Shown here: positions 12,214 to 64,000 of the stretch, piece by piece
Layout: each line of letters starts with the position of its first letter
Position numbering within the stretch: the first letter of the stretch is position 1
From: Trichuris trichiura
Taxonomy: Eukaryota; Nematoda; Enoplea; Trichinellida; Trichuridae
DNA: 64,000 nucleotides
Assembly (NCBI GenBank): GCA_037903355.1
Contig: JBAJFE010000050.1
Coordinates: 930,001 to 994,000 of the forward strand
Direction: 5' to 3'
The notes under the pieces: model-generated
Seen by the model: the letters and a program-made list of their open reading frames with translations, nothing else
Told to the model about the DNA's origin: nothing
Database searches by the model: none
Made by a program: the position numbers and the translations under genes

Positions 12214-12267
12214 ATGATGCGGAAAGTGAAGCTCTTTCTGGGCTTGCTGTTAGCAGGCTTTTCATTG
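12214..12267 (+). CDS. Gene 1 exon 1: signal peptide
   Basis: Eighteen codons, MMRKVKLFLGLLLAGFSL, are followed by GTAAGC. There is a basic N-region, then a Leu-rich core. Cleavage is likely just after the splice junction, around VNS|C at the start of exon 2. A second ATG directly follows the first, and either could start. Gene 2 exon 1 (40,005-40,055) is clearly homologous. The following intron (561 bp) is the longest in gene 1. Confidence 0.75.
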
Positions 12268-15200
12268 GTAAGCATTGCAGCTTCCAGTTAACGGCGCCTA
12301 TCAAATTGGCGAAATTGGTTTTTAAATACCTTTCCGTCTAGGCTACAGTAGACTTCATTTGCATTTGCAACGGCATTGCAAAAATAAACTGTTGAATGAC
12401 CGTATGTCAAATGAAATAGGCGCATGGGTGTCATCGAGCTACTATTCCTTTTAATTCGCTTCTTACTGGTGCTTCTTACTGGACCATGAATCCCTTGTTA
12501 AAAGGTTTTACTCATTGCTTATCATCTCATTAAAGTATTCATTTTTCTGGCAGAAAGAATGCTTTTAAGGTACTTCTGACTAGTAGTCAACCTAACCAAA
12601 AAAGTAACCAAGTAATTCTCAAGGCAGGAAATCTTGTTTCATTTTGGAAAATATCATGAAAAGGGATAGGCAGTTTTTTTTACCGAAAAGAGCGAATTAA
12701 GAAAAGAACGTGAAAATACTTTAACGGACACTAGATAGCGTAATTTCTTACAATCTGGGGTTTTAGCAGCCTTTACTGCGCAGTAGTTGAAAAAGGGAAG
12801 CGGAATTTTACCGTTATCCATATTTAAGGTAAACTCATGTTCACCCGGCGCCAACGTCACAGGATGTAATCTGAAAAATTCACCCGCCAATCGAAACAAT
12901 GGACCAATGCTAATAGAATTCATAAAAAACGAAACCTTTAGTCAAGGAATTTACGTGGAACAATGGTTGACGAAAATGGTCCAATTGAACTCGGCAAAAA
13001 TGAATGGAACTATGGTCACTGTGAAGTATTTCGTTGCGCCAACACAGTGCAAAATACAAAATGGGGTAAACGTTATTCTAAGCTAACTGTTAAGATTTTC
13101 CAGACTGTTTCCCGCTTTTATTATCTACTTCCTTTTAGTCCAAGTGATTAAGAGCAGTATAGTCAGACATTTTGCTCATGCGAACATATATGGTTACGTA
13201 ATATACAAGCAACTGCTTAGAACGTGCGTGCGTAAGGTTAGAAGATTTAAAATTATGTCAAACAAAAATGGCGCCTACTGGCAAAACATGTCAACAAGGA
13301 TTAAGAAATAATACGAAAAATGCCAAACTGGGAATTTAATTACGCTTTTGCAGATTTCGCTTGAGCGATTGTACTCAAAAAAATGTCCCATTCAAAAAGA
13401 AATGGAATGGAAAAAGTGCAAGGGATTTTTCAGCATGGAAGATAAGTACTCTTCCGTGTCTTGCTTTAAGACAGTTCCCCCACGGAAGAAGGACTCCGAA
13501 ATTTCCAACTCGGTCAAGGTAAGCTAGCTACCGTAATAAAAATGTATTCAGGTGAATAAGATTTTGTTAGCTTCGTCAGTTACTTGGTTAGGCTTAAAAC
13601 CTCGTTCTAAGCGGCAGTTTTATTAAAAACACGTCTGAGTTAAAACTAATATTGACAAAAAATGCATAAGGTTTAGATTAATGTAGTTCGTATCTCCTTT
13701 TGGGAGAAAGCTAACGACGCGAACTCTAGGCCCCAAAAGTTCTTTACCCTTTCAACTTTTTCGATAAATCATGCATACCGTAAACTTTCATTACGACAAC
13801 TTGAATATAGTAACTATGCACCTGAGCGGTAAATGTACCTGTGAAAGACAGTACGCTTTCAATCTTCCTTTCAGGATGAAGTGGCGAAAGTAAATCTGAA
13901 TAGCGATGATTCAAGCGAGGAAGTCAACGGATATAAAATCCATGCAGTGGTCAAAGACCATATTTTCCATTCCAGCTTTTTCATTGATGATTGGTATGTA
14001 CGCTTGGTTAGGCTTTACGAAAACAGAGAAACTGAAAACGGCCTCTTCGTGAAATTCTCGTTGGCACCCAGTCTCTGCAGCAACTTGATTACGGTAAATA
14101 ATTGCTATCGACTTTAAGCATGCTCAATAAGCGGTCCATTTTTCGAGAAATTGTATTCCTAGCTATTACGTATTTTGTTTTCTAGATTTCCTTAGATCAA
14201 CTATACTCCAGCTCGTGTCCAGTTATACAGAACGATGACTGGATGCTTTGCAGCGGTATCATTCTTAATAGAACCGTTGGGGACTATAGAATCACGTGCA
14301 GAGGCATTATACATTCAGACAACAAGAAAAAGGATGCAGACAATGGCGTAAGTTTTCTTCGCTTTATTTGTTTTATTTTCCAGCTAGTCGGTTGATAGTA
14401 CGGTCAAAAACGACATTCCTTACGAAGTCAACATTATAAGAGACTTCCGCATCCCAAACACTCCAGCTTTCTGTTTTCTTCCACGATCTACTACTTGCAG
14501 AGAAACGTCACTACAACAACAACAACTGTGGTTGCCACATCGGTAGAAGTGATGCAAGTTACCACAGTGCTTAAACGCCTCATATTCGCCGAAGTCATGG
14601 AATTTGACGGCTGGTATGCAAGAGTTGTGGACTTGCGTGCGTTGAAAAGAGAGGAGTCGACCGCATTCGTTGAGTTCACGATCGCACCTAGCAAATGCAA
14701 TGTCAAATCAAAGGTAGTTGCTTAAAAGTTTTTAAAAAACTTGTAAAAGATTGTTCATAAAAAACGGACAAGATTGTGCATACGAAATGCATTGTAATGT
14801 AGAGAGCTTCTAGAAAAGACACGTTTCGTTGTCAGCTTTTTCCGAATTTTGCAGAAACCTTTTCCCGCTCACTGCAACAGCTCATTTTAGGTGTCTTTCG
14901 ATCAGCTGTACTCCAACGTCTGTCCTATTGACATCGACGGAGCAACTATCATCTGCCAAGGGTCAGTGTTTTACAACAGTAACGGAAAACATACAATACA
15001 TTGTGGCAAACGGAAAATCAGCAGCCCGGTAACAATTCCCCTCCTTATTTGTGGAATTGAACAAATTCTTAGAATCAAAATTGAAAATGCAGAAAATACT
15101 TTCTTTATCTTGAATACTACTAGTAAAACCGCTAAAGGAAATGCATGCTGTTTCGCATTTCTTTTAAAAGCTTAATTTACTCCCCTAACATGGCGTGCCG

Positions 15201-18200
15201 CTTTTCAGCTACCGTCGGAATTCCCTGCATTGCTTAGGATTGTAGAAATAAACGAGCAATCCACTCAGGAAGAAATTACAGTGGTCCTGCAAAATCTTAT
15301 AACTGAGAAAAAGATTCAAACGTCCGTCCGTAATGTGCACATCAGCTCATTGTTGAAGGTGGAAAAGCAAGAGTCATTTGCATATGTAGAATTTATTGCT
15401 GCACCTGCTGAATGTGACCCATCAGTTCAGGTAATTTCGTATAACAATCCCTTAAGCATAATCAGTGAAACAACGCTGCAGGGTAGTTTTCGTAATACAT
15501 ATTAGTATGGCTTAACTCTCAAAGTACGCGTAGTGTTGCTTTGCTATACTTCACAGTCAATCAGCTGAACTCAGCTTATGTCTGAGAGTGTAATCCAACT
15601 GCGAGATCGAATTTTTCAATTCAGGACCCCATTGGACTAAAAGACAAGACAGTATGCGACTCAAATTCTTCAAGCATCGTAATATTGTGCAAAGGAAATA
15701 TTCCATATTCACCGAATGAAAAACATGGTATAAATTGCACGGAAATGAAAAGAGACGATCCGGTAATGTGGACATGTAGCCATTTTCTACCTTTACTGGA
15801 GGGCATAATTCCAATAAAAAGCATGAGACCACACTTATATTCCTCTTCACTCATTTTCTGCCATTATGCTCAGGATAAATAACTTACTCGGTTGAGGACA
15901 TGGTTAAATAAGGAAACAAGGCCAACGATGCCGTTATTTTTGATTTTTAAGCTTCTGTCCAAGCTGCGATAGCCTGAGTGACAGGACTCTTTTCATTACA
16001 GAGTTTATCGAAGCTGCCTACGCACGTTATCCCGGGAAAAGAGCAAGTGCACGAATTTGAGGAAACTCAAGAAATAATTACCACAATCAAGGAATTCATA
16101 ATAGAGGAGAGAATCACTATTGAAGGGCATCAAGCTTGGCTTGACAAAGTGATAAGCTTCCAAAAGAGCACAGAATCTATCGAAATGGAATTCAGCATAG
16201 TTGACATATTTTGCGGACAGCGCAAGTCGGTAAGTAAAAATATATTGCGCAGAAAATTAACCACTTAAAAAACGAGTAGTAAGCTTGAAAATAATGAAGT
16301 CAGGAGATGAAATGTCAAATGAGTCGTTTTTGAATAATGACTATTTTAAGCTTATGCCTCTTGCAGACGACTACACATGATCCTAGCAAGGATTCGTGCA
16401 TGCAGAGAAATGCAAAAAAGAAAGCCGTCTGCAAAGGGACCATATCGCTGATACCAGGAATAAGAAACTCGTTCAGATGCACATTACCAGAGCTCGTCCG
16501 ACAGGTAACCTTATTATTTATAGCTTTTACGGTACGGCGCATGAAAGTGAAAGTAAATCAAGTACAATTACATAGACAGCTGCGATTACGAGTTGTGGAT
16601 CACATGCGCAAGACAGCAAATACGAACGCGTGTCATTTTTAGAAACCTGGAGCGACTACACCAGCAGAAAAGGACACTGAAATTGACGCCGAAATTACAA
16701 TCTCAATCAAGCGGCTATTACTGATTGAGAAAATTGCTATCGGCGGGCATCACGTACGCTTCGATACGTTGAACAGCCAGAGAAGAGTAAAAACTGGACT
16801 AGCAGTAGAATTCACCGTTAGAAATACTAGATGTGATATCACAGAAGAGGTATACGCTGATTTTGCTCATTTTTCAAATGTTTTGCATGCGTTACGACTT
16901 GCGTAACTCGCACTTACGCAGTTTTAAGATATCGCCACATTTAGTGACCACTGTGTTGATTTCTGACGGATAGAACTTCTAGATGTCTCTCAGTATGATC
17001 TACTCTGAATCGTGTACGAAAGTGAGCCAAAAGAAAACGCGTCGATGCAAAAGCATTCTGTCCTTCATCGCTGGAGTGAAAGATACTGTTCATTGCGATG
17101 AAGAAACGGATAGCGGTGAACAGGTATGCGTTTTATTTTGCTTGAGCAGCGCGCGGGAAAAGACGAGCTTTGCATCCTTGCATTCGATGCAGATCTCTTT
17201 GCTGCGTTATTAGCCAACCTCTTTGCGCTAAGCCATTCAGATTGCTGTTATTGACAAAGACTATATGGTATTATTTGTAGACTGATCCTTCTCGGCCATC
17301 CATTCCTGAAGGACCACACACTGATAAGACAACAACCGAAACAATTACCAAATCAGTCAAGGAAGTTATCTTCACTGAAGTTATGACTATCAAAGGACGA
17401 CATGCACGTGTCGAGAGGCTGATAAAATACGAAAAGCTCACAACAGGTGTCCAAGTTGAATTTTCCATTTCTGAAACGACCTGCGATGGAAGGCTAAAGG
17501 TAAATACTACTTATGAATCTTCATTTTCCCATAACATTATTATTGCTGTGTTGTAATATGTCTGAGCGTCCCCTTCCGCTGCTGCTTGAGAGGTTTCTAT
17601 CGTCTGTTATTGGCCTTGGCGCAGCCTCTTTCTTGTTGCAATCAACACCATCTTAAAAATCGGTTTTGCAGATTTCATTGGAGCAAATCTATTCTTCAGT
17701 GTGCAGTCCTGACGGAAAGACAACTGTTATTATTTGCAAGGGTATTATTCCGTTCGCGAAAAGTATGCAACACACAATCAGATGCTCCGGCGGTGATAAA
17801 CTTACGGAAGTAAGCAGAGCATTAAAGTTTTTGAAAAGACATTGCAGCTTACCCTTTGACGCTCCACCGGAAGTATGTAATCGCTGCTTCTTCAGATTGA
17901 CCCTTCGACTCCATCCACTGATGGTGACAGCAGCACGGTTATAAAAACCATAGAATATACTGAAGTTGTGCATAAAGTCGAGCGATTGGTATTCATTGAA
18001 AAAATGACAATCAATGGTTACTATGTACGCGTAGAAAAATTGACCAAATACGAAAGAACAACAACTGGCGTAGATCTTATATTCATTATCGTAAGAACCA
18101 AGTGCACCAGCAAGACGATGGTATGTTGTTCGACTTGCCCTCCCGCCTTATTTATTGCATCGTATAGTCTAGCTTTGCTTCAATCTGTTAGCTTTCTTTT

Positions 18201-21200
18201 CATGCACCCTAATTATATTCCCAACTTGGACGTCGCCAGCAGAGGGTTTTTTTTAGGTAACGATCGACAACCTATACTCATCTAAGTGCGAACCGCAGGA
18301 CTTCTCGGATCCCATTGTGTGCAAAGGGATATTGCCGTTCGAGCAAATGTTTTTGCACCAAATCAGATGCACCCTCACCAACGGCACCGAAATAGTAAAT
18401 ATGCTTTTTTTTGGGCGGCTCTTCTCTTTTCGCTGTTTTGTCTTGTTAGCGGCAGTTCAAATTCTGCCATTAAGAAAAACGCTTTCAGGCTAGCTAATTG
18501 CTATAACTTTTTGCTTGTCTCTGTTTCGTTCGTTACTCAGTGCACGTGGTTGTCTCACGAACAAAGCTTCTCTTGCAGCCTCTCGCTCCAACTCCTCAAA
18601 GCCCAATGGATGGCGAAGTAGTCGTAACTGAAGAAGAAATTGAAGTCACCACTCAGATCAGACAAATGATGTTCGCTAAGAAATTGACTATTAACAAACA
18701 GCAAGTTCGACTCGATACGCTTATCAAGCACACGAAAATTGAAACTGGAATTGAAGTGGAATTCACTGTTATAGAAACTACCTGCAGTATCAACGACCAG
18801 GTAACTGTTCCATCTGATCCATATACATACTTTTGGTATTTCCTCCCCTGTTGTAAGCCATGGAAGTTTTAATTTCATCCACTAAGCCAGCTAGCGCCTT
18901 CTCGTCAGTTATAAGAAGGCGTCTTTAATGAGGGGGAATAAAACAAGGCTGTTAACTCACCTGTGCTCTTGGAACTTTACAGATAACGATGGAGCAATTG
19001 TACGCAAAATTCTGTACGCAAGAAAGCTTTGGCAAGAAGCTTATCTGCAAAGGCATTATTTCCACTCTGCCAGAACTGAAAGACAATGTGCAATGCTCTG
19101 AAAGAGACAACATTGAAGAGGTAAACCAATTCTTGTTATTTTTACCTGTATTTTGTTTAGCGTAATCGATTGACTTGGAAATACGTGGTTCTACGGCTTT
19201 GTACGCTATGCCTTCTGTCACTATTAATTTTGCCATTGCTGAAGCCTTACGCATATAAATTCATTGCAGTTTGATCCATCGGAACCGTCCACTCCTGGCA
19301 GCCACATAATTGTTGATCCCAGCAACGTAAACTCTTACGAAATTACCATTTCCATCAAAAAACTCATGTTCATTGAAACAATGACCATAAAAGGACATCA
19401 CGTAAGAGTTGAAAAACTGCTGAAGCATAAAACGGTTACTATGGGTGTCGAAGTTGAGTTCACCATTTTGCAAACGACATGTGACGGAGTAGTGAAGGTA
19501 ATGTATATAGTTTCTTCTTTTCGTTCTTTTCATCTTCTATCACGTAACTGCTTTCTTTTTTTCTATTAAGGGCGTCGGCTAAGGTTTCTGTAGCGATATT
19601 ATTTGCATTTTTCAACGTCGTTTTTGTTCTATAGATTACTCTCGAACAAATCTATTCCGACATGTGCGCAGTCACGGAAGCTACGAAAGTGGTTGTCTGC
19701 AAGGGGCTTCTTCCATTCCAATCTGTGATGAAGCACTCTATCAGATGTTCCCGCGGAGATAAGCTTTCGTCAAAGGTAAGCTTCATATTCTCTTTTACTT
19801 ATAGTGTCCGAAACAAGCGAGTTTTCCTATTGCATTTTCCCTATTTTCGCGTCATTATTTCAGAGTGACCCATGGATACCCTCAACTGATGTTGTGAAAT
19901 CTGTTGAATACTCTAAAGCATTACGCTTCGTCGAACGATTTGTTTTCATCGAAAAGATGAGCATAAGTGACCATTACGTCCGCGTTGATGAGATGAGCAA
20001 ACATGAAACTTCTGCCACTGGAATGGATGTTATATTTACGGTTATAACCACGACATGCACCATTGAGCAGCGGGTATGTTGGTTTTGACTTTGATTTCTT
20101 CTTGCATTGTTCTAAGATCTGAGCAATGCTTTGAGTTTATCTTAGAGAACGAAGCTTGTCAACCTTTGGCTTCCCTTCAATTATTCTACCATTTTCCTAT
20201 CCGTGATTTATTTCAGCTGAGCATGGAAGAACTCTACTCGCCTTTATGTCCACCGGAACGACTCTTCACAGTCGCAGTATGCACTGGAACTTTGCCTTTC
20301 AAATTAACTGTTCCTCACAACGTCTCGTGCATATTCAGCAACGGCACTGCAACGGTAATTATTTGCTTATTAGTTGTTAGGTTATTTTCGTTTAATCGAA
20401 TACTTTTGAAAATCACTCGCCGATTTCGCCTCGCTTCAAAAAAGCCAGCAGAAGGTTGCTTTGCTCTCGCAGTCTAATAAGATGAGGCGGGATTTCAATC
20501 TTTACCACTTCAGACCAGCCTTGGCGAGGGGAACGTAAAACTGCTAATCTTTTATAGCCACTTTCGCCAGTACGAAAACGTCCGGAGGAAATGCAAATTG
20601 TTGAAAGCACCGAAGTGGCTGAAATTACCAGTCAGATTAAAGAACTGATTATTACTGAACGACTGACCGTGCGTGGACAGCGTGCTCAATTGGATACGCT
20701 GATTTTGCACAGAAAAGTTGAAAATGGCATCAAGGTTCAGTTCACCATTGTCGAGTCTACATGCTCGGGAAATATTCAGGTAACCAATGCAGCAAAATAA
20801 CCATAATGATCCGCTAATAATTTCGTCAGCTCATCATTCTTCCCAGCTCAGAATTAGCGCTTACATTTTATCCATTCCTTATTTATAAATACTGTCAAAG
20901 TGGGCCCAAAATATGCTCCATCGTGATACCATGTAATATAGCGACTGTTTAGCAAACGGTGGAGAAGTTGTACGGACAGCAATGCACACGTCTTGGCTAC
21001 GGGAAGAAACTTATCTGCAAAGCCATTATTTCCACTGTACCAGGAGTGAAAGACTACGTTAGATGCTCTGAACAAAATGAGATCGAAGAGGTAAACCGAC
21101 TTCTGTCACTTTTATCCGCGTTAAGATGGATTGGGTAAACTACATCTAGGCTCACGGCAACATTTCAAAGTAATTTTATTAATATTAATATTGTCAATCT

Positions 21201-24200
21201 CCTTTGTGGAAGTAGAACAAAGAAAAGTGCATTACCACATAGGAAAAGCAAAGATGTGGAGGTAATTGCGCTCTGCATTGTAGGTTGAACCGTCACAGCC
21301 GTCCACTCCTGGCAATGTCACCATTAGTGACCCAACAACCGTAAGCAAAGAACAAGTTACAATTTCTATCAAGCGGCTAATGTTCTCCGAAACTATGACC
21401 ATAAATAGTAATCACGTCCGAGTTGAAACGCTGAACAAAGTAGAGACAGTCGCCTCTGGCATGTTGGTCGAATTCACTATTGTTGAAACTACATGCAGCA
21501 GCAGATTGAACGTAAGTGTTTCCGATCAGCTTGCTATTATTCTTTCCTCTGGATTAACGCGGCGACAATTCTTCATTTTTTTCCATATCTCATTCCACAA
21601 AGTTGCCGTTTTCAGATTAGACTGGAAACCATATATTCTAAGCACTGTCGAACTGTCCAAAGCGCTACCTTGATCGTATGCAAAGGATTACTTCCGCAGA
21701 AAAAGACTGATACCCACACGATCAGATGTTCTGGTGGAGATAAGCTCACTGAGGTAATCTCCCTGTTTTCATAAAAAAACCTTCCGCAGCAAAAGAGCAG
21801 CAGTTCATTTCATTCTTACGGCATGCATGCATTATTGTCTCACTGAATATTCATTACTTGCTTAGCTACCTTGGAATGGCTACATCAACATATTTAGTCC
21901 ATAGCTATGGAACTCAGCTTTCTATTAACAGTGTAGATATTATTACTGCTTTCAGGACTCTCCGTCAGATCCATCGATTCCAAGTGAAGGCGATATTGAA
22001 CAAAATCCTCAAGTCTTGAATCGGTTAAAACTTCTGGCGTTCCATGAAAGACTCACGATTAATGGAGCTTATGCTCGCGTCAGCTCAATAGCAAAAGTTC
22101 TATCTGTTTCTGTCGGCTTGGAAGTCAGATTTACCATTACACAAACCGTCTGCCGCGGCACGCAGATGGTATGTTCTTGCATAAGTATAAACGGTTTTGT
22201 TTCTTTCAACGTTCATGCAAAACTACGCTTTTAATTTCTGAATATTCCCTCGCTAGACGTCGACAACTCAATTCCCACCTTCACGCGCACAACTTAGTCA
22301 ATTGGCAAACGCTGACAAGCTGATCCAATCGGAAGACTGAATATATTCAACAGCTTACCTTTAGATAACTTTGGAAGAGCTCTATTCACGCCGTTGCCGA
22401 CCGCAACTTCCAAGCGCTTATCAGAGGTGCATAGGAATTCTGCCTTCAAATGATCGAACAAAGCCCAGTATCAAATGCGGTGAAGTGAGGAAGCCAGGAA
22501 AGGTAATGGCTTTACTTTCCATTGTTCTTATCTATAATTTCCTATACATTAATTCGCTGTTTTGTGACTTTAAGGTCTTTTCGTACTTTCCAATGCATCT
22601 TCAATCGGCAGCGTAAAAATGCGTCCTCTTTCAGGAAGATGACCAGACGTCTCCAAGCGATGACCAAACAGGACAAAACACTCAGGTCATAACTTCAATT
22701 AAACGCTTAATACAAACGCAGTCAATCACCATCAATGGACGATATCCTAGCTTCCATAAGTTGATCAGGCAAACCAAAACAGAAACCGGAATAGAAGTAG
22801 AGTTCATTGTTACGGATCCCATCAACGGCACTGAGGTATTTATATACTTATTTGAGTTTCTTCATCAGCTGCAGCATCACTCCATATCTTTTTTTTAACT
22901 TATAAATATGAGGAACAAAAGCACCTTATAAAAACTCTGTAATGGAGTGCTCACCCGCTTTGCTCTAATTGAAAGAATGTTAAGACCTCTGTGGACACGA
23001 AAATCACAGAAACAGACACGACAGTGCATTATACCAAAACGCTCATCTGCAAAGGCATCTTGTCACTGACACCTGGAGTAAAAGACAGTGTTAAGTGCGA
23101 AAAACCAAAAGATGACACTGAAGAGGTAAGTTCTCATCCTCTATGCTATCTTGTTTCCAGCAGAGCCAATGCGGTGTGAATGTCAATAGCTATGAGTTGA
23201 AGGCAATGTGAAGGCAATACTGTCATGAGAGTCGCATTATTTAAAGCAGATGACCAAAACGAGCACCTATAGTGTAACCTTCCTGAGTAGCGGTCTCTAT
23301 GCCGCCCTTTAAGCTCCTGCTGTTGATAAGTAAATGCGTCTTATCTTTAGATCGATCCTTCTCGGCCGTCTACTCCCGGAGACACGACCACTGAGAAAGC
23401 AACAATTGAAAAAATAACACACTCAATCAGGGAGTTTATTTTTGTGGAAGAAATGACCATAAAAGGTCGGCACACTCGCGTTGAGAAGCTGATAGAATAT
23501 AAAATGGTCACAACTGGTGTCCAGGTTGAATTTTCCATTTACGAAACCACCTGCGATGGAAAGAAAAAGGTGAACATCTATTTATACAGAAATCTTTGTT
23601 GTTCCGGTTCTCAACTTCTGCCTAACGTAAATCCACTCAACTTGGCAACTCGCTCCCATAGTACAATCAACATTGTGGCAAGCACCTATTTTTCAGATTC
23701 CTTTGGAAGAAATCTACTCGCCCTTATGTCCTCGAGCTGACATGACCGTTGTTATTTGCAAAGGTATTCTTCCGTTCAACAGAGAAATGAAACATACTAT
23801 CAGATGCACCGGCGGTGACAAGCTTACAATAAAGGTGCGCGCATTGATGTCACCTCACATTACTTAATCACTTACCAATGCTTTAGCCTGATCCTTCGAT
23901 TCCATCAGATGATGATGACGGCACTACGAGTCCTCAAGGACCTGAGTACATTATAGCACTGCGCAAAATCAGGCGTTTAGTGTTCATTGAAAAGACGAGC
24001 ATCGATGGTTACTATGTACGCGTGGACAAACTGACCAAATATGAAAAAACTATAACAGGAACAGATGTCACGTTCACCATAAGGCAAACAACGTGTGCTA
24101 CCAAGAGGACGGTAAGCAGATCGATTTCTACTACCTACTTAAGTGCCCATGTTTGCTGTTTAAAGCGTTGCTGTCCTTGACATGACGATTTTTTTGTTTG

Positions 24201-35494: not shown

Positions 35495-35511
35495 CTTCTT
35501 CAGGAACATAC

Positions 35512-35517
35512 AATAAA
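35512..35517 (+). terminator. Poly(A) signal of gene 1
   Basis: AATAAA lies 18 nt after the stop codon. It is the first such motif after the gene, and the very short 3' UTR it implies fits the compact gene structure. Confidence 0.6.
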
Positions 35518-40004: not shown

Positions 40005-40055
40005 ATGCAGAATATGAAGCTCTTACTGAGCTTGCTACTAGCAACGTTCTCTGCG
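40005..40055 (+). CDS. Gene 2 exon 1: signal peptide
   Basis: Seventeen codons, MQNMKLLLSLLLATFSA, then GTAGGC. Translation could also start at the inner Met-Lys. Cleavage is likely after ANA at the start of exon 2 (ANA|CPPG). The Leu-rich core aligns with the gene 1 signal peptide. Confidence 0.75.
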
Positions 40056-55000: not shown

Positions 55001-58000
55001 AGTACGGAGATGTCAAATGCTCTGAGCAAGATGATATCGAACAGGTAAACAGCTTTCTCTTTTCCTCAAAATTTTATCCTACTATGTCGTATGGTGAAAA
55101 TGACACGTCATAATGTTTAAAACTACTGAGAGCTTTTGTCTTCTAACACTGCTCGTCGATTGGACATATTAAGCAAAATAATATCCTCCCATCGCTAAAC
55201 TTTTACTACGCGAGCAGTCTTGCAACTCTGGTGGATGAATACATAGCAGCACTCCATTGCAGATTGACCCCTCAAAGCCATCAACTCCTGGCGAGGATGA
55301 CATTACCGACCCTTCACAAACTGTCAGCTCAGAAAAAATTACAATCTCTATTAAAGAGCTCATTTTCTCTGAAACAACAACCATCAACGGACATCATGTA
55401 CGAGTTGAAAAATTGATCAACTACAAGAAAGTCACCACTGGTGTTCACGTTGAATTTACCATTGCTGAAACTAAATGCAGCACCAAGTTAAAGGTTCGTA
55501 AAAAACACCATTTTTACAAGCGCTTCCTTCGTCACCTTTTCTTGTCCATTTTCTTTTTTCATGGGCAGAAATTTTCTTTCTTCCACTGCATTCCAAGAAC
55601 AAACATGTTCTGGACTAGCTGAAACATGCTTCTCTTTAAAGCTTTTACACTCTTAGCATTTTCTCTTAGATTTCACTGGAGCTATTATATTCGGAACACT
55701 GCAAAAATGTACACGGAATAGCTGTTGTTTGCGAAGGCTTGCTTCCTTTCCGACCTGGAAATGCTCACACTATCAAGTGCCCGGGTGTAGATAAACGAAC
55801 TGACGTAAGCACAATATTCTTTTTCTTAGAAATCTTCCGTTAAGTCAACGATTCTCTTGTTCTTTCAATCCATCATGTCATACCACATTCACTCATACAA
55901 CAAAGCCTTTGTTTCAACTTGACGTCTGATGGCTTGATCGCTGAACACTCCATTGTAGGTTGAACCGTCCAAACCAACCACACCTGACGGTGAAGACACC
56001 AGTGACCAAACACCAATAAACAAAGAAGAAATTACACTTTATATCAAAAAGATAATGCTTTCTGAAATAATGACTATCCGTGGGCATCACGTTCATGTTG
56101 AAAAATTGATTAGAGCCCAGAAAGTGACCTCTGGTGTATTTGTTGAATTCACCATTTTGGAAACTACCTGCAGTGGCCGACTAAAGGTACGTGGTTTTAA
56201 ATCAGCTAAATCGGTCTCGTTTTCCCATTTTCCTTTTTCTGCGGTTACATAGAAGTCCTCATTTCAGCTTACATTAGAAGTCGTCTATTCTCATCGCTGT
56301 CTAGCTGTGCAAAGCAGCACCGTAATTCGATGCAACGGAATCCTTCAACTGCCTTATAATTCTAAGCACTCGATCAGATGCTCTGGTGGAGACAAGCTGA
56401 CAGACGTAAGCTAACTGAATTATAATGATTATCAAAGAATTGTTGGACCACAGATCAGTTCTCATTTAGATAAGTTTCCTTAACGGCACTATTCTTCCTT
56501 TACAACGTTGCCCATTATAAGCAATCATACTCCAACTTACTTATAGCTACCTTCTTCCGGAATTTAAACTACACCGTCATCGGATATAAGATATTCATGT
56601 TTAGAAATACGATCCTGAACCATCCATTCCAAGCGACGGGGATAGTGCACAGCCTGTTAACAAACCAGAGATTATGTCCAAGCTGAGGCTACTCACGTTC
56701 ATGGAGAAATTCTCTATTCGTGGTCACTACGTACGCGTCGAGTCCTTGAGTAGCGCTCATAAAGTTCCTGGCGGTACTCAAGTTGTGTTTACCGTTACGG
56801 CTACCGTCTGTACCATAAGGATACAGGTACGAAAACAGGGATGGCAGTGTAGCTCATATTTTCTTTCGCTACGAGTCCTTGTGCTCTCAGCTTGCATGAG
56901 TGTCTCTTTTTCTCTGTTTTCCAATGTTTTGCACTTTCTCTTTAGAACAAGCTTTCCTCATCAGCGACTCACGTTCAGATGTTTGCTTTTAGATAACACT
57001 GGAACAGCTGTACCAAGACTTCTGCCCGCTTCAAAGTCCAATCGTAAAACAAATTTGCAAGGGAGTGTTGCCATCAAACTCACTATCAAAACATAGTATC
57101 AAATGTTCTGAACCAAGAGGAGACGACGAAGTAATAGTTACTTTCATTTCTTGGTCATATTTACCTTCGAATATACTTTCTGTCATCCTCACGTCATTGC
57201 CACAGTTAGTGCAACTTCAACGGTTCGAACACAGCAGCAGTGCTTTTAACAATACTGAGAAACTAATTCGCTATCATAGCCAGATTATTTTTTCCTTCAC
57301 ATCTATATAAGGCTTGATTCTTCATCTATTTCAACTGACTTCTCTATTGCTCAACTCTAGAAGTATGATTCCTTTTAGCCGACTAAACCCAGTTTCCCAA
57401 CACCCGTCCAACCTACAGAAACAGAATTAGTAGAAATAAAGAAAATCACTACGTCTATCAAGCGCCTCATAACGAGTGAACGAATCACTGTCAACAGACA
57501 GCCAGCAAACTTCGAAAGATTGATCAGCCATAAGAAGACAACATCCGGAATTGAAATAGTGTTCACTGTTACGGATAGCCGTTCCGATGAGGTATCTACT
57601 ATGACGTTTTACTTGTTTTTCTCAGTTTCATTTCGTTCTTTTATCCATACCTCACTCATTCCCTCAAACCATAACAGCGGCTTTGCATGTGGGTATAATA
57701 TTGCTTCTGTTCCAACAACTGTGCCTATGCTTTTTGTACAGCCAGTTTTATTTCATGTGATAATGTTTTCAGACTTCCGTTGTGGATCCTTCTCGAGTTA
57801 AGAAACTTATTTGCAAGGGCATTTTGTCATTGATACCAGGAGTGAAGGATAGTATTAAATGTGAAGAATTGAAAGAGACGGATGAAGAGGTACGTGACAC
57901 AAAGTTGCTAACTCTCTCTCTCTCTCTTGCAAATTCTTTCTATATCAACAATAGTCGTTTTGGCAAGTCGCTTTTTTTCAGTATCACAAACCAAGCTTCC

Positions 58001-61000
58001 CAACTCCTAGTGAACCTACGGAAGCAGAAACAGTGGAAATAACAAAAATCAGTACTTCTATCAAACGTCTCATAAAGAGCGAACGAATCACTGTCAATGG
58101 GCAACCGGCACGTTTCGATAAATTGGTCACTCATAAAAGAACAGAAACCGGCATCGAAGTAGTATTCGTTGTTACGGATCCCCGCGCTGATAACACTGAT
58201 CGGGTACGTATCATGTTTTTATTATATTTTCACATTTGTATTTCATTTTTTCATGCATAATTCAATTCAGGGAATCAATGTGGTTGTGAATAAGTAACGC
58301 ATGCATGCACTATTTTATTTATAATGATTATTTCGGTCCTGGCGCTTGTTATTTTCGCCTTATTTCAAATGATGATGTTTTCTAGACGCCCTCCGTTTGG
58401 GATCCTTCCGTATCAACCTTCACGAAGAAACTTATCTGTAAAGGAATTCTTTCATTGGTGCCTGGAGTGAAGGATACTATCAAATGTGAAGAAGCGAAAG
58501 ACGGTGATGGACAGGTAGGTGGTAATTCTATTGAACCTCTGATAGGTGTTAGATTCGTGGGATCGGGAAAAAGAATATGAGGCAAGATTAATCCTTCCTT
58601 AGTACAAGCAATGGTCAGCAGTAATAATGTACACTGTTTCAGCATCACGATCCAAGCTCCCCAACTCCTAGTCAACCTACGGAAGCAGAAATAATAGAAA
58701 TTAAGAAAATCACTACTTCTATCAAGCGTCTCATAAAGAGTCAACGAATCACTGTCAATGGGCAACCGGCAAGCTTCGATAAATTGGTCACTCATAAGAG
58801 AACAGAATCTGGCATCGAAGTAGTATTCGTCGTTACGGATCCCCGCGCTGGTGACACTGATCGGGTACGTATGATGCTTTATTTTACTTTCACATTTGTA
58901 TCTCATCCCGCCGTCCGTAATTCGATTCAGGGAAAGAATGTGGTAAGGAATAAGTGGTGGATGCGTGTGCTGTTTTATTTATACTGGCTATTTCAGTCTT
59001 CCCGCTTGTTATCTTTGCCTTATTTAAAATGTTAATGTTTTCCAGACGCCGTCCGTTTGGGATCCTTCCGTATCAACTTTCACGAAGAAACTTATCTGTA
59101 AAGGAATTCTTTCATTGGTACCTGGAGTGAAGGATACTATCAAATGTGAAGAAGCGAAAGACGGCGATGGACAGGTAGGCGATAATTCTATTCAATCTCT
59201 GCTAGGTGTTGGATTAGTGGGCGCGGGAAAAAGAATATGAAGCAAGCTAAATCTTTCGTCAGTAAAAGCAATGGTCAGCAGTAATAGAGTGCATCGTTTC
59301 AGTATCCCGATCCAAGCTTCCCAACTCCAAGCCAACCCACAGAAGTAGAAACAGTGGAAATAACGAAAATCACTACTTCTATCAAGCGTCTCATAAAGAG
59401 TCAACGAATCACTGTCAACGGACAACCGGCGAGCTTCGATAAATTAGTCACTCATAGGAGAACAGAATCCGGCATCGAAGTAGTGTTCATCGTTAAGGAT
59501 CCCCGTGCTGATAACACTGACGGGGTACGTATGATGTTTTATTTTATTTTCATCTGTAATTCCTCATTTCGTCATCCGTAATGTAGTTCAGAGAAAGGAC
59601 ATTGTCATTGCTAAGTGACGAATGCATGTTTTATCTCAGTTATAGAGGCTATTTGGGCTATTTTTGTCTTATTTCAAATGATAATGTTTTCTAGGCGTCT
59701 ACCGTTTTGGATCCTTCCATATCAACCTTCAGCAAAAAGCTTATTTGTAAAGGAATTCTCTCATTGGTACCTGGAGTGAAGGATACCATTAAATGTGAAG
59801 CATTGAAGGGCGGCGAGAAACAGGTAGGCGGATATTCTACTCAACGTCTGCTGGGTGTTAGACTGGTGAGCGCGGGAAAAGGATTATGAAGCAAGATTAA
59901 CTTTTTCTTATTACAAGCATTTGTCGGCAGTAATAGTGTGCATGGTTTCAGGATCATAAACCAAATCATGGTCTACCTACAGAAGCCGAAATAACAGAAA
60001 TTAGGAAGGTTACTACTTCTATCCAGCGGGTAATAGTTATTCAAGGAATCACTGTCAACGGACAGCCGGCACATTTCGACAAATTGGTTACTCATAAGAA
60101 AACGGAGTCCGGTTTCGAAGTAGTGTTCATCGTTAGGGATCCCCGTGCTGATAATACTGGTGGAGTACGTATTACGTTTTGTTTGCTCTTCACAATACTA
60201 TTTCGTTTCTTCTCCTGTAAGTTACCTTTCAAACGAGATTTATTTATGTATGAGTGGTGAGTGCGTCTAAATATGGCCTTTATGGTGGCTCTTTTTGCTC
60301 TCCCATGTTTGACGTTCCCTTGTGTCACGATACCTTGTTTTACAGACGTCCTCAAGCGTGGATCCTTCCGGCAGTCTCACTGTATTAGGTATTACGAAAA
60401 AGCTTATTTGCAAAGGTACTCTCTCGATAGTGCCTGGAGTAAGGGACAATATCAAGTGTGAAGAAATAAAAGACAGTGTTGAAGAGGTAGGTAGTCGGCA
60501 GCAATGCTAAATATTAAATGTGCCGTTTTTTCAGCGTCCTAAACCGAACTTGCCTGGAGGCGGCCACCTTGCCTTGGAAGATATTACAGAAATAGTTAAG
60601 ATCACTACTTCCATCAAACGGCTATTGGTGACTAAAGGAATAAGAGTCAATGGGCAACTGGCACACTTCGAAACGTTGATCACTCATAAGAAAACTGAGT
60701 CCGGAATCGAAATACTGTTCACAGTTACGGATCCCCGATCTGATGCCCCTGGTGACGTATGTATAACGTATTGATTGCTTTTCAGATTTATATTCCTTTT
60801 TCCGAAAAGTCGTGATTACTTACGACTAGTCGCAAATGCACGTTTGCATATACTGTCGCTTCTACAATGGTGACTCTTTCTAGCCATCCTCGGGTGTGGA
60901 TCCTTCGGGAACTTTCACAACGGTGACCCAAACCACGAGACTTATTTGCGAAGGTATTCTTTCGCTGGTACTTGGAGTAAACAACGACATCAAATGCGAA

Positions 61001-64000
61001 GATCCCAAGGATAACTTTGAAAAGGTAAGTGGCGGTCGTCAGCCAAGGTGAGTTTTAAAAGCGTGGTTTTTTTAGTATCCCATACCGAGCTTCGCAACTC
61101 CCATCTATTCTCTCCGTGAAGCTGTAGAACAAATAATACGAATCACTGCTTCTATCAAGCGACTAATAGTGAGTGAAGGAATCACCGTCAACGGACAACT
61201 GGCACGCTTCGAAACGTTGATCACTCATAAGAAGACTCAATCCGGAATCGAAATAGTGTTCACTGTCATAGATCCTCGTGCTGACAGCACTAGCAGAGTA
61301 CGTATGGCACGTTATTTGTTTTCCACAATCATCATTTAACTTCTGGCAAAGGTTACAATGTATACTTTGTTCAGGCTTTTCCTATGTCCACTTTGTTTCG
61401 AGCGTTGACGTTTTTCAGATATTCTCTGGTATGGATCCGACCAAAACTTCGGCAACACTGCTCTATAGTAAGAAGCTTATTTGCAAAGGCATTTTGTCGC
61501 TTGTGCGTGGTGTAAAGAACCATGTCAAATGCGAAGAAATTAAGGACAGCGATGAGCAGGTTCGTTGCGTTGTTTTCCCATCCGGCTCTGATCTTTGTTG
61601 TAGTAACGAGCCTATTATAATTGAAAAATAATTCTACTTATATGAGCGTCTTACCACAGTCATATGGCTGCTATTGAACTAAGTTTTGAGGCGCTGCATT
61701 CTTTATCACACAAAGAGTGTCTTTCCCAACTGCTTAAGTCGTTTCTATAGTTGTTCTTAATGTGCAGTTAAGGCTGATAGGTTTGATAATCAATTTTGTT
61801 CCCTTTGTAGATTGATCCATCCTTGCCTTCCTCTCCTTCGGCTCCATGGGCTAACGACCCTGCCACTACGGTTGTAGACACTGTCGAATATGTTAAAATA
61901 CTCAGCAAAGTAAAGCGATTGGTCTTCGTTGAAAAGATGACGGTCGGTGGTTACTATGTGCGCGTGGACAAACTAACGAAACTTGAAAAAGTCGTTACTG
62001 GAATGAACATTGCATTCACTATCATCCCAACAACATGCGCAACAAAAGTGACGGTACTACACGCCTCGCTTGGTTTATCTCTTATTTTAAAATTAACATA
62101 ATATCTCTTACCTGGTTTAACAGCGTCCATTCTTGTGGTTTGACTCCTTAACGCAATGGATTAAACTTTCAGGTAACCATTGATCAACTGTACTCCTCGT
62201 CATGTGCAGTACGAAGCTCCTCTTACTCTTTGTTATGCAAGGGAATATTTTCTCTGGGACAAACGTTCGAGCATCAAATCACATGTTTCTTCGCCAACGG
62301 AACTGAAACGGTAATGCTTCTTCGGATGCTAAATTTTTCTGCCTTTTGTCTTGTTGGTAGCTTGTAGCGTTCACAAATTAACAAGACAACTGTTTAAGCC
62401 TCTTGGTCCACAGCCTTCTGACCCAAGTGACCCTGAAGTCGTGGAAACAGCCGAAATTGCCGAAATCACTACTCAGATAAAGACGACCATAATCACAAAG
62501 CGATTTATTATTAATGGTCAGCACGCTCGGTTGGATAAACTCATTAGTCACAAGAAAGTGGACAATGGCGTTCAAGTAGAGTTCACCATAATGGAAACTA
62601 CTTGCGACGGCAACGTTCACGTAAGTACTAGGCAATTTTCTATTCCAAGATCTGTCTTTCGCCATCTTGTCTATTTTTCCGTTGCTAAAGCAATAGCATC
62701 GTAATTTCACACAATATAGCAAATACTACTCTTAATGCTTTGTTCCGATCGATTACAGCGCTAGACTATCATCCTCTTATGTTTTAGGTAACGATGGAAC
62801 AACTATACGGTTTGTCTTGCATACGACATGGTTATAGCAAGAAGTTAATATGCAAAGGCATTATTACCACCGTACCTGGAATGCATCCCAACATTGAATG
62901 CTCTGAGCGAGATGACGTCGATGAGGTAAAACTAATTTCTATCCCCTTTTTATTGTTAACATTGTGACAAGAGACTTGTTTACTTATTGCAGTTTGACCC
63001 ATCGCTTCCGTCTACATCTCACAGTGACGTCATCATTGATGCAACAACAGTGAGCTCCCAAAAAGTTACAATTTCCGTTCAAAAACTGATGCTCTCTGAA
63101 TCGATGACAATCAAGGGACATCATGTCCGCGTTGAAAAGCTGACTAAGGTTCAGAAGGTCATATCCGGCGTACTGGTTGAATTCACCATTTCGGAAACTA
63201 CCTGCAGTGGCAGGCTTAGAGTACGTGGTTTTCAATCAGCCTTTTTCCTTTTGAAAAAATGAGTCTCTGCAATTGAGACTAGAAACTTTTCGTTTCGACT
63301 TGTCCGCTCTTGAGTTAATCTACTCTGCATTCATTTCAGCTAACGTTAGAAGTGATATACTCCGAACGCTGCAGCGTTGTACAAAGCACCACTGTGATTG
63401 TATGCAAGGGTCTTCTTCCAGTACGACAAGGCATTAGTCACACGATCAGATGCTCTGGTGGAGATAAGCTCACTGAGGTCAGTTTCAGCTTTTTCTTTAG
63501 GTTACTTAACCTTTCTTTCATTTTCTTTAGGAATATCCTGGCGGCCCGTTGTATCCATCAGACTCTGACGGACAGATGGATAAAGATAGCATTTATCTTT
63601 TGCTGAAGAAGACTCTCTTCAATAAGGCTATTCACCTGAACGGATGGTATGCAAGGCTGGTATCGCTGGACAAGATTCAAAGATCAATCAGAAATGAGCT
63701 GCTCGTATCATTTACTATTGCTCCTAGCAAGTGCAGAAGCGAAAGAAAGGTATTTATTTGTTTCCCACATTTTTCAATTTTTTTTCTATTTATGTTTGTC
63801 TACGAGTATACCTAGAGGGTTCATGAGTTGTTTAAACAGCAGCAACCTCCTACGGCCAACACCTTAAAACATCCGTCCAATTCTTGAGAAGCTCTTAGTG
63901 ATCTTAAACATTTCATTCGAAACTGATACCCGTTTAGTTTCCAAGGAAAGGACTGATCACTTGATGTCACTTTCAGATAACCCTTCTTGAACTGTATACC
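40005..64000 (+). CDS. Gene 2: giant secreted multi-cystatin-like protein (69 visible exons, 34 domains), 3' end outside window
   Basis: Paralogue of gene 1 in the same orientation, 4.5 kb downstream. A signal-peptide exon and 68 further exons (the last cut by the window) encode at least 4,050 residues and 34 cystatin-like domains. All introns are phase 0. Domain order is N N N f b c d e f a b c d b c d f a b c d d e, then seven f, then b c d T. The terminal-type domain at the window edge suggests that the gene ends within a few hundred bases beyond 64,000. QxVxG is degraded: the nearest copies are D31 (KVVTG) and D14 (QTATG). D18-D23 are nearly identical to gene 1 D21-D26. Confidence 0.85.
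40610..41485 (+). CDS. Gene 2 D1, type N cystatin-like domain
   Basis: Exons are 40610-40846 (79 codons) and 41321-41485 (55), with the same lengths as gene 1 D1. The extra N-terminal Cys pair is kept (ACPPG...EC), as is LIEFIKNET. B half PSLKDLYSMQC, RCTGIFSME. Confidence 0.82.
41774..42254 (+). CDS. Gene 2 D2, type N cystatin-like domain
   Basis: Exons are 41774-41992 (73 codons) and 42090-42254 (55). VKDHIFHSSFFVEGWHVRLI; B half ISKEQLYSSSC, LCSGIILNRT. High identity to gene 1 D2. Confidence 0.83.
42408..42951 (+). CDS. Gene 2 D3, type N cystatin-like domain
   Basis: Exons are 42408-42620 (71 codons) and 42814-42951 (46). Thr-rich linker (EEITSTTTQ); loop RTETG; B half INLEQLYSHFC, SCNGTLEL (NGT sequon). 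Partner of gene 1 D3. Confidence 0.83.
43339..43849 (+). CDS. Gene 2 D4, type f domain without first disulfide
   Basis: Exons are 43339-43548 (70 codons) and 43709-43849 (47). ITTSIRQMIITEGVKVNGHI; loop TTETG; the A half ends in an acidic Cys-free tail (DESYSDPDMDPSE) and the B half begins STFETVISESS, also Cys-free. Confidence 0.82.
44099..44632 (+). CDS. Gene 2 D5, type b domain
   Basis: Exons are 44099-44299 (67 codons) and 44495-44632 (46). Short linker; IERLVFFEKMTANGYHVRVN; loop KVDTG; B half VTIDQLYSDMC, ECKGIMPFQQ. Confidence 0.86.
44794..45343 (+). CDS. Gene 2 D6, type c domain
   Basis: Exons are 44794-45015 (74 codons) and 45206-45343 (46). LTEITTRIKEMMINKKMSIR; loop TVDSG; B half LTEKQLYDPSC, KKLICKGIIYNIPGLKD. 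Confidence 0.86.
45464..46191 (+). CDS. Gene 2 D7, type d domain
   Basis: Exons are 45464-45679 (72 codons) and 46054-46191 (46). Linker FDPSKPATPGVD; IKKLMFFNAMTINKHHVHVE; loop KVTSG; B half VTLDVLYSERC, ACKGLLPL, SGGDKLTD. Confidence 0.86.
46331..46866 (+). CDS. Gene 2 D8, type e domain
   Basis: Exons are 46331-46552 (74 codons) and 46729-46866 (46). IRLLAFSEKFSVKGSYARVD; loop TIDAG; B half ITFEQLYSSVC, ICKGILPSN, TIKCTDPRGDEE. Confidence 0.86.
47049..47516 (+). CDS. Gene 2 D9, type f domain with four cysteines
   Basis: Exons are 47049-47270 (74 codons) and 47394-47516 (41). ITRSIKRLITTQKITIEGNL; loop KTETG; the Cys in DPNC and a Cys in the short B start (GHKKC) are both present. Confidence 0.84.
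47720..48180 (+). CDS. Gene 2 D10, type a domain
   Basis: Exons are 47720-47938 (73 codons) and 48040-48180 (47). Linker IDPSLPSTPGS; IKGRHARVEKLIKFE; loop KVTTG; B half VSFEQLYSSQC, SGGDKLLVE. Confidence 0.87.
48402..48794 (+). CDS. Gene 2 D11, type b domain with a 45-nt intron
   Basis: Exons are 48402-48611 (70 codons) and 48657-48794 (46). The intron between its halves (48612-48656) is 45 nt, the shortest in the window. VERLVFMEQMTIGDYYVHVD; loop KVTNG; B half VTIDELYSSMC. Confidence 0.86.
48984..49495 (+). CDS. Gene 2 D12, type c domain
   Basis: Exons are 48984-49205 (74 codons) and 49358-49495 (46). Linker PLKPQDPGRDD; ITSRIKRIMITKKLSVNGQ; loop KVETG; B half LSVEQLYGLSC, KMLICKGIIS, VKDNIQC. 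Confidence 0.86.
49671..50236 (+). CDS. Gene 2 D13, type d/a hybrid domain
   Basis: Exons are 49671-49898 (76 codons) and 50096-50236 (47). The A half is type d (IKKLMFAETMTINKHHVRVQ; loop KVSSG). The B half, IPLENIYSSLC with tail SRGDKLTTE, is closer to type a. It may be an exon-level recombinant. Confidence 0.85.
50422..50874 (+). CDS. Gene 2 D14, type b domain
   Basis: Exons are 50422-50634 (71 codons) and 50737-50874 (46). VERLVFIEKMTINDHYVRVD; loop QTATG, the only copy in the window with Gln at the first loop position; B half LTFEQLYSSDC, VVCKGLLPFEQ. Confidence 0.86.
51054..51613 (+). CDS. Gene 2 D15, type c domain
   Basis: Exons are 51054-51275 (74 codons) and 51476-51613 (46). LTKITKQIKRMMITKKLTID; loop TVENG; B half LTVEQLYDPSC, KKLICKGIIFHIVGLED (the usual Pro is Val here). 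Confidence 0.86.
51798..52297 (+). CDS. Gene 2 D16, type d domain
   Basis: Exons are 51798-52025 (76 codons) and 52160-52297 (46). Linker FDPSQPTKPGRDD; IKKLMFFEAMTINGYHVRVK; loop KATSG; B half VPLATIYSHHC, TDGDKLTE. Confidence 0.86.
52445..52890 (+). CDS. Gene 2 D17, type f domain with four cysteines
   Basis: Exons are 52445-52666 (74 codons) and 52750-52890 (47). Closest partner is gene 1 D20; the intron also aligns, apart from a deletion here. Loop KTQTG; both first-disulfide cysteines (DPNC, SETC) are present. Confidence 0.87.
53036..53547 (+). CDS. Gene 2 D18, type a domain
   Basis: Exons are 53036-53254 (73 codons) and 53410-53547 (46). Exons are identical to gene 1 D21; the intron differs by two substitutions and one inserted T. 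Confidence 0.87.
53777..54312 (+). CDS. Gene 2 D19, type b domain
   Basis: Exons are 53777-54001 (75 codons) and 54175-54312 (46). Same sequence as gene 1 D22 at an offset of 26,269 bp. Loop RATSG. Confidence 0.87.
54478..55044 (+). CDS. Gene 2 D20, type c domain
   Basis: Exons are 54478-54690 (71 codons) and 54907-55044 (46). Same sequence as gene 1 D23, including its unusual CKAIISLINRE segment. Confidence 0.87.
55263..55804 (+). CDS. Gene 2 D21, type d domain
   Basis: Exons are 55263-55493 (77 codons) and 55670-55804 (45). Same sequence as gene 1 D24, with the aberrant CPGVDKRTD tail. Confidence 0.86.
55959..56405 (+). CDS. Gene 2 D22, type d domain
   Basis: Exons are 55959-56186 (76 codons) and 56268-56405 (46). 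Same sequence as gene 1 D25. The perfect match ends in the following intron, near 56,465. Confidence 0.87.
56605..57130 (+). CDS. Gene 2 D23, type e domain
   Basis: Exons are 56605-56826 (74 codons) and 56993-57130 (46). It differs from gene 1 D26 at scattered sites (for example QDFC against QDIC, PRGDDE against PKEDDE) and by a small intron deletion. Confidence 0.86.
57379..57889 (+). CDS. Gene 2 D24, type f domain, short B exon
   Basis: Exons are 57379-57591 (71 codons) and 57773-57889 (39). Partner of gene 1 D27. Loop KTTSG. Both first-disulfide cysteines absent. First of seven f domains. Confidence 0.86.
57982..58514 (+). CDS. Gene 2 D25, type f domain
   Basis: Exons are 57982-58203 (74 codons) and 58386-58514 (43). 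ISTSIKRLIKSERITVNGQP; loop RTETG; no first-disulfide cysteines. Confidence 0.87.
58643..59174 (+). CDS. Gene 2 D26, type f domain
   Basis: Exons are 58643-58864 (74 codons) and 59046-59174 (43). It starts 661 bp after D25. ITTSIKRLIKSQRITVNGQP; loop RTESG; the A half ends DPRAGDTDR. Confidence 0.87.
59303..59823 (+). CDS. Gene 2 D27, type f domain
   Basis: Exons are 59303-59524 (74 codons) and 59695-59823 (43). It starts 660 bp after D26. Loop RTESG; the B half begins ASTVLDPSIST; no first-disulfide cysteines. Confidence 0.86.
59952..60486 (+). CDS. Gene 2 D28, type f domain
   Basis: Exons are 59952-60164 (71 codons) and 60346-60486 (47). Shorter linker; VTTSIQRVIVIQGITVNGQP; loop KTESG; B half TSSSVDPSGSLTVLG then KKLICKGTLSIVPGVRD. 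Confidence 0.85.
60535..61024 (+). CDS. Gene 2 D29, type f domain
   Basis: Exons are 60535-60756 (74 codons) and 60884-61024 (47). The intron before it is only 48 nt. The linker contains PGGGH; loop KTESG; CEGILSLVLGVNNDIKC has lost the Pro of the PG loop. Confidence 0.84.
61076..61559 (+). CDS. Gene 2 D30, type f domain
   Basis: Exons are 61076-61297 (74 codons) and 61419-61559 (47). Preceded by a 51-nt intron. Loop KTQSG; VIDPRADSTSR; B half IFSGMDPTKTS; the PG loop has become VRG. Last f copy in the window. Confidence 0.84.
61811..62310 (+). CDS. Gene 2 D31, type b domain
   Basis: Exons are 61811-62053 (81 codons, the longest A exon) and 62173-62310 (46). VKRLVFVEKMTVGGYYVRVD; loop KVVTG, the closest to QVVAG anywhere in the window; B half VTIDQLYSSSC with LCKGIFSLG. 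Confidence 0.86.
62399..62925 (+). CDS. Gene 2 D32, type c domain
   Basis: Exons are 62399-62620 (74 codons) and 62788-62925 (46). Linker PLGPQPSDPSDP; IAEITTQIKTTIITKRFIIN; loop KVDNG; B half VTMEQLYGLSC, KKLICKGIITTVPGM. Confidence 0.86.
62993..63477 (+). CDS. Gene 2 D33, type d domain
   Basis: Exons are 62993-63220 (76 codons) and 63340-63477 (46). Linker FDPSLPSTSHSD; VQKLMLSESMTIKGHHVRVE; loop KVISG; B half LTLEVIYSERC, IVCKGLLPV, SGGDKLTE. Donor GTCAGT. Confidence 0.86.
63531..64000 (+). CDS. Gene 2 D34, terminal-type domain, partial
   Basis: Exon 63531-63749 (73 codons) and the first 24 bases of a B exon from 63977 (ITLLELYT). LNGWYARLVSLDK matches the last domain of gene 1 (LRGYYPRLVSLSG). 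The 227-bp intron between the halves has no counterpart in gene 1. The open end is the window edge, not a break. Confidence 0.8.

Follow-up and report, generated by a model that had tools for sequence, protein, structure and literature searches.

Two adjacent Trichuris trichiura genes with more than 30 predicted cystatin-like domains each

What kind of protein is built from more than 30 copies of one small domain, and what might a parasitic nematode use it for? The question is raised by a stretch of 64,000 nucleotides from Trichuris trichiura (contig JBAJFE010000050.1, positions 930,001 to 994,000), referred to here as the window. It holds two adjacent genes on the plus strand, in each of which a cystatin-shaped module appears to be repeated more than 30 times. 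We give about an even chance to the reading that these are two paralogous genes for secreted, non-inhibitory strings of cystatin-fold domains of ~440 kDa each (calculated from length), which stay largely intact and act by avidity.

Gene models and annotated relatives

Profile hidden Markov models (HMMs) of the two half-domains were seeded from the window, rebuilt three times from window matches and applied to all six frames. At E < 1e-9 this gave 67 exons for the first half (A) and 66 for the second half (B), alternating, all on the plus strand and clustered in two runs (12829-35494 and 40610-63752). Six weaker rows (three A and three B, E 0.19 or worse; two inside the runs and four outside) were excluded, the best of them (E 0.19) lying on the minus strand. 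In the exon models, the 33 domains of gene 1 together with its first exon come to 3,975 residues. Gene 2 has 34 domains; its array exons in the window encode 4,020 residues, which with 17 residues from the first exon and 50 from the last exon (from 63977) add up to ~4,087, and its stop codon lies downstream of the window end. The HMMs and exon models thus bear out the two giant genes with products of about 4,000 residues that the original prediction had proposed from the DNA alone. The signal-peptide-like exon expected ahead of each array was likewise recognized by eye in both genes, where it is hydrophobic, and both proteins are presumably secreted. The features are as follows.

12214..12267, plus strand: first coding exon of gene 1, signal-peptide-like (MMRKVKLFLGLLLAGFSL), GT donor at its end (by eye)
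12829..15028, plus strand: gene 1 D01-D03, N-cap domains (HMM), reciprocal best matches of gene 2 D01-D03; D01 with two extra cysteines
15209..26622, plus strand: gene 1 D04-D20; D04-D05 of N type, then types a-e, with a-b-c triads recurring from D07
26768..30136, plus strand: gene 1 D21-D25, protein 100% identical to gene 2 D18-D22
30336..30865, plus strand: gene 1 D26, type d
31114..34254, plus strand: gene 1 D27-D31, five domains of type e, all missing cysteines 1 and 2
34539..35035, plus strand: gene 1 D32, type a
35123..35494, plus strand: gene 1 terminal D33, a single unbroken exon including the stop codon; the structure-predicted domain
35512..35517, plus strand: AATAAA 3' of the gene 1 stop
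40005..40055, plus strand: first coding exon of gene 2, signal-peptide-like (MQNMKLLLSLLLATFSA), GT donor at its end (by eye)
40610..42951, plus strand: gene 2 D01-D03, N-cap domains
43339..52890, plus strand: gene 2 D04-D17; D04 without cysteines 1 and 2
53036..57130, plus strand: gene 2 D18-D23; the protein of D18-D22 is the same as that of gene 1 D21-D25
57379..61559, plus strand: gene 2 D24-D30, seven domains of type e, all missing cysteines 1 and 2
61811..63477, plus strand: gene 2 D31-D33, types b, c, a
63531..63749, plus strand: gene 2 terminal D34, first-half exon
63977..64000, plus strand: start of the last gene 2 exon (second half of D34), with the stop past the window end
Gene 1 domain starts, D01-D11: 12829, 13875, 14501, 15209, 16002, 16643, 17281, 17896, 18579, 19270, 19864
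Gene 1 domain starts, D12-D22: 20558, 21284, 21956, 22635, 23351, 23887, 24636, 25392, 26101, 26768, 27508
Gene 1 domain starts, D23-D33: 28209, 28994, 29690, 30336, 31114, 31751, 32411, 33071, 33726, 34539, 35123
Gene 2 domain starts, D01-D11: 40610, 41774, 42408, 43339, 44099, 44794, 45464, 46331, 47049, 47720, 48402
Gene 2 domain starts, D12-D22: 48984, 49671, 50422, 51054, 51798, 52445, 53036, 53777, 54478, 55263, 55959
Gene 2 domain starts, D23-D34: 56605, 57379, 57982, 58643, 59303, 59952, 60535, 61076, 61811, 62414, 62993, 63531

No internal stop codon occurs in the array exons (0/65 in gene 1, 0/67 in gene 2). All 130 introns have an in-frame solution with GT-AG borders in phase 0 (64/64 and 66/66), an outcome that is partly built in, as the splice sites were hand-picked from in-frame GT/AG candidates. 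The independent check is therefore the recurrence of the junctions in annotated proteins of T. trichiura and Trichuris suis: allowing at most two mismatches in 12 residues, 56 of 64 junctions of gene 1 and 42 of 66 of gene 2 were found again. Since the exon pairs are bounded by phase-0 introns, they are cassettes that can be gained or lost without a frameshift.

A database search with the gene 1 product, in which the 1,808 candidates with the most words in common with it were scored, retrieved four proteins, none of them named cystatin. Their matched stretches include some half-domains.

P0003: Trichuris trichiura, 'TCP family transcription factor, partial', 2,841 aa, 26 matched stretches
P0005: T. 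trichiura TTRE_0000754901, partial, 2,915 aa, 30 matched stretches
P0004: T. suis D918_00200, 2,750 aa, 26 matched stretches
P0006: T. suis M514_28028, 2,351 aa, 20 matched stretches

The name of P0003 is evidently wrong. The proteins are not entirely new to the databases, as models of 2,351-2,915 aa from both species were already public without a cystatin name. Outside a tract that the two genes share (gene 1 D21-D26, gene 2 D18-D23), P0003 domains correspond to gene 1 and P0005 domains to gene 1 D31-D33 and to gene 2, with identities of 95.6-100%; within it, both match at 72-100%. The domains of T. suis match the window at about 69-92%, and by sequence the family is conserved, with orthologues, in that species. 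When 1,753 candidates were scored with a three-domain query, the only matches at E <= 10 were two further fragments from T. suis, P0001 and P0002. A six-row three-domain alignment gave no match at E <= 1 among 5,285 candidates, not even the family members P0001 and P0002, and is regarded as insensitive. In the open-licence literature searched, nothing came up for five accessions of the annotated proteins or for a whipworm cystatin connected with the stichosome, and a search for Trichuris multicystatins led to Trichinella only.

Domain types and possible exchange between the genes

Cysteine and tree counts refer to the 66 domains that are complete in the window, gene 2 D34 being excluded. The original description as four-cysteine domains applies to 52 of them; in the remaining 14 the first two cysteines are both missing. 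Cysteines 3 and 4 are present in 66/66, and no domain lacks just one of cysteines 1 and 2, a pattern for which we infer disulphides C1-C2 and C3-C4. All two-cysteine domains belong to type e and thus do not represent 14 independent losses; both first cysteines are kept in 4 of the 18 type-e domains (gene 1 D06 and D20, gene 2 D09 and D17). The types a to e were assigned by eye and checked on a FastTree tree of the 66 domains, rooted on the D01 pair, in which each type label forms a single clade with no intruders (supports 0.76 to 0.996). There are 17 a, 9 b, 9 c, 4 d and 18 e domains, the other 9 being N-type or terminal (T). The order is N N N N N e abc abc a d e abc a e abc a a d e e e e e a T in gene 1 and N N N e b c a d e abc abc a e abc a a d e e e e e e e b c a T in gene 2. 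The string 'a e abc a a d', with an e block behind it, occurs in both genes. The linkers between domains are short and rich in Pro, Ser and Thr; together with the L2 loop they are the most variable segments, with segment borders set by us. A Gly in the alpha-beta2 loop is near-constant (75/95 domains).

The type-e block comprises five domains in gene 1 (D27-D31) and seven in gene 2 (D24-D30). In the T. suis models it comprises one domain in P0004, one and part of another in P0002, and two in P0006. This difference between the species may reflect expansion, loss, skipped exons or assembly collapse.

Over 7.8 kb common to both genes (26476-34241 and 52744-60473), DNA identity is 92% overall. From 27200 onwards, 15 consecutive 200-base steps are 100% identical at one offset, introns included (~3 kb), and the next two steps are 97.5% and 99.5% identical. 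The published T. trichiura copies diverge in this tract: P0003, the gene 1 copy, is 81-97% identical to the window at D21-D25, and P0005, the gene 2 copy, 97-100% at D18-D20 and about 95-97% at D21-D22. A near-identical tract in the window together with differing published copies indicates either recent exchange or an assembly artefact in the window; at D21-D23 the direction of exchange was perhaps from gene 2 to gene 1. The arrays probably grew through duplication of two-exon cassettes, often as a-b-c triads, plus exchange between both genes. The ratio of nonsynonymous to synonymous substitution rates (Ka/Ks; Nei-Gojobori counts by script) is 0.17 over six same-length exon pairs beyond the identical steps, a seventh pair of unequal length having been dropped, and 0.30 when 21 overlapping pairs of first exons from type-e domains are pooled. 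Both values point to purifying selection for the protein. In the later parts of both arrays (window 24001-32000 and 50001-58000) the GC skew drops to between -0.11 and -0.20.

Predicted cystatin fold and possible function

The structural evidence comes from one well-modelled domain of the 67, gene 1 D33, which is predicted to adopt the cystatin fold. The structure prediction and a Foldseek search of its model agree with the fold originally proposed, and the other domains probably share it. The top two Foldseek rows are 4eyc, a cathelin-like domain (E 3.9e-4 and 4.6e-4, 21% identity), whose alignment places the four cysteines in register, with C-x-G at cysteine 3. P0005 as a whole scores above the Pfam cystatin cut-off (24.5 vs 22.2 bits). 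Among the six whole database proteins it alone passes PF00031; P0001 reaches 15.0 bits and the other four have no cystatin row. With a single-domain profile that included the neighbouring genes, the top row of the PDB profile search was a tick cystatin (E 0.24); the six-row three-domain alignment gave no rows there.

Several results weigh against the reading proposed here. Absent from the annotated proteins are 8 of 64 junctions of gene 1 and 24 of 66 of gene 2 (32 in total); the published gene models of T. trichiura leave out exons, and in P0005 the end of gene 1 runs on into gene 2. As to the fold, E <= 0.001 is reached by just 2 of the 609 Foldseek matches, and the query-normalised template modelling (TM) scores of rows 1-30 are 0.46-0.60. 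From sequence alone the case for a cystatin is weak: none of eight single domains scored above cut-off in a Pfam scan, PF00031 included. The best PDB profile match was a carbohydrate-binding module (E 0.027), followed by cathelicidin (0.061) and mialostatin (0.17), and P0005 also passes a spurious-looking S4 match (26.4 vs 22.8 bits). A three-domain model of P0002 has a low predicted local distance difference test score (pLDDT 45.3); it has the same helix-strand order in the three domains and, at this confidence, was not used as evidence.

Some sub-threshold matches were set aside. For single domains these were DAP3 (18.0 vs 23.1 bits, D01), S4, LbH_EIF2B, DUF5432 and Cathelicidins (13.2 vs 21). 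The cystatin-like family Spp-24 comes near its cut-off in P0001 (25.5 vs 26) and P0004 (23.3), over spans of 16-21 residues, and was not relied on. Scoring of the best candidates in the worm's own genome gave at least 24 PF00031 matches, none in the window; they lie on contigs C1, C4, C5, C7, C11, C12, C19 and C21, clustered on C7, C11 and C12. The A and B HMMs had no match in the examined pieces of C7, C11 and C12 that hold these classical cystatins.

Trichinella and Trichuris belong to the same order, Trichinellida. The closest described system is the Trichinella protein MCD-1 (Ts-CLP, TbCLP), according to the cited passages a secreted nematode protein with tandem four-cysteine cystatin-like domains (PMC4334762, PMC6797592, PMC4740406). 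By its published description its domains also lack QxVxG, and it is made up of 3 domains in 406 aa (PMC4334762), where the Trichuris products have 33 and 34 domains in ~4,000 aa, in line with the far larger domain number that had been predicted. The two-cysteine type-e domains set the Trichuris arrays apart from it. From family 2 cystatins (cystatin C and E/M, tick iristatin and mialostatin) the window domains differ in lacking QxVxG and PW at L2, in their longer C1-C2 span, in their tandem arrangement and in scoring below the Pfam cut-off (eight single domains). Several cystatin domains per chain are described in the cited passages for kininogens (3 domains, PMC6797592), a Fasciola cystatin (6) and plant multicystatins (8) (PMC4740406, PMC5085774); the units of potato multicystatin inhibit proteases, whereas the Trichuris domains are without the motif. 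The cathelin-like domain of cathelicidins, given as vertebrate proteins (PMC2784779), shares the four-cysteine register with D33. The Trichuris chains consist of 33 and 34 tandem domains and end 10 (gene 1) and 13 (gene 2) residues past the last core cysteine, with no C-terminal peptide unit. A cathelicidin, by contrast, is defined by a single cathelin-like domain followed by an antimicrobial peptide. Nematode polyprotein allergens are secreted as one chain of similarly sized tandem units; they are helical, lipid-binding and have basic cleavage sites between the units, unlike the predicted cystatin fold and the unit borders without RX[KR]R found here.

Do these arrays inhibit proteases? QxVxG and PW are parts of the wedge with which cystatins block papain-like proteases, according to PMC2784779. 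Motifs were counted in the 96 domains of four array genes on the contig, two of them upstream of the window. QxVxG is present in 0/96, the commonest residues of the aligned hairpin being [KER][KR][VT]x[TS]G, so the proteins are not classed as inhibitory cystatins. PW occurs anywhere in 5/96; the three cases in the window lie in linkers, and one in a neighbouring array (N2_D04) lies in the L2 stretch. That PW, the cystatin fold predicted for D33 and an Asn in the alpha-beta2 loop of 46/96 domains, which we take to lie near the legumain-binding Asn of cystatins, would suit an inhibitor with many papain-like or legumain sites in the style of multicystatins or kininogens. The motif counts make this very unlikely, and Trichinella CLP, with three such domains, no QxVxG and a PW altered in each domain, is reported in the cited passages not to inhibit papain (PMC4334762, PMC6797592). 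Taken together, the lack of the motif and these reports favour many-site binding over inhibition, as far as can be inferred from sequence analysis. A single gene with 67 domains in place of two is more improbable still. P0005 spans gene 1 D31-D33 into gene 2 D01, but it leaves the D33 exon ahead of the stop through a GTGAAA donor and bypasses the signal-like exon of gene 2. An in-frame stop and AATAAA close gene 1, gene 2 opens with a signal-like exon of its own, and T. suis P0002 and P0004 end with the D33 C-terminus.

A more serious competitor, although we consider it rather unlikely, is a giant precursor that is cut in the linkers into units of one or a few domains, as nematode polyprotein allergens are. 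The Pro/Ser/Thr-rich linkers separate folded units, two-residue basic pairs are common (76 in gene 1 and 69 in gene 2, counted over the whole proteins) and Trichinella MCD-1/CLP is described as being processed to shorter forms in a pH-dependent manner (passages in PMC4334762 and PMC6797592). The two cleavage motifs examined leave the cutting into units, which had been raised as an option, unsupported so far: RX[KR]R is absent from gene 1 and has a single occurrence in gene 2, within a helix and off any domain border, G.[NAT].[FY].D, after a motif named for the Trichinella protein, is absent from both, and no common cleavage signature was seen by eye at the domain borders. It is doubtful, too, that the products are internal or structural worm proteins (egg, cuticle, stichocyte matrix or body fluid) with no action on the host. 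A signal-like exon is compatible with any extracellular compartment, and a passage on the T. trichiura egg-extract proteome mentions a cystatin-domain protein without specifying its identity (PMC8021180); the nearest described relatives in make-up, Trichinella MCD-1/CLP, are excretory-secretory in the passages cited above.

In our preferred reading of secreted, non-inhibitory strings, the chain would stay largely intact and the many copies of a non-inhibitory cystatin surface would hold a ligand at the worm-host interface by avidity. For Trichinella MCD-1/CLP, ligand binding and, specifically, a fetuin-like binding of TGF-beta have been proposed (passages in PMC4740406). A bolder version, which we regard as unlikely, would turn the four-gene, 96-domain cluster into a giant multivalent capture polymer that acts without protease inhibition, serving at the epithelium of the host as a decoy or a sink for ligands. 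Its phase-0 cassettes would be reshuffled within and between genes, so that binding loops, of which L2 is the most variable, could change quickly while the scaffold stayed under purifying selection.

Neighbouring arrays and significance

Upstream of the window, the same contig (C34) carries a 17-domain array on the plus strand (C34:874226-890633) and a 12-domain array on the minus strand (C34:907782-898369). Both have the same two-exon unit and four cysteines in 29/29 domains; for these models of the domain arrays, splice sites were chosen automatically and first exons left out. In all, about 120 kb of this contig carry four genes with 96 domains. Scattered half-domains that match the family more weakly occur at C22:569001-579000, perhaps a further short array, C49:378001-398000 and C20:1214001-1224000. 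Ahead of gene 1, a segment of nearly 5 kb is duplicated in tandem (1-4783 and 5188-9767, 77-80% identical), and eight open reading frames from window 1-9767 and just beyond gave no Pfam match above cut-off. A weak GWT1 match at 9829-10101 on the minus strand (22.3 vs 29.6 bits) may mark an exon of an adjacent gene.

Provided that the gene models hold, these would be by far the longest cystatin-type arrays among those described in the literature consulted, which have 3, 6 and 8 domains, and they come from a human parasite. The locus is a well-resolved case of protein lengthening by exon-cassette duplication and exchange between neighbouring genes. If secretion holds true, the products are candidate antigens for serology. 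Overall, the worm seems to use the cystatin module for something other than blocking proteases, and the cluster offers a test of what the cystatin fold does without its papain-blocking motif.
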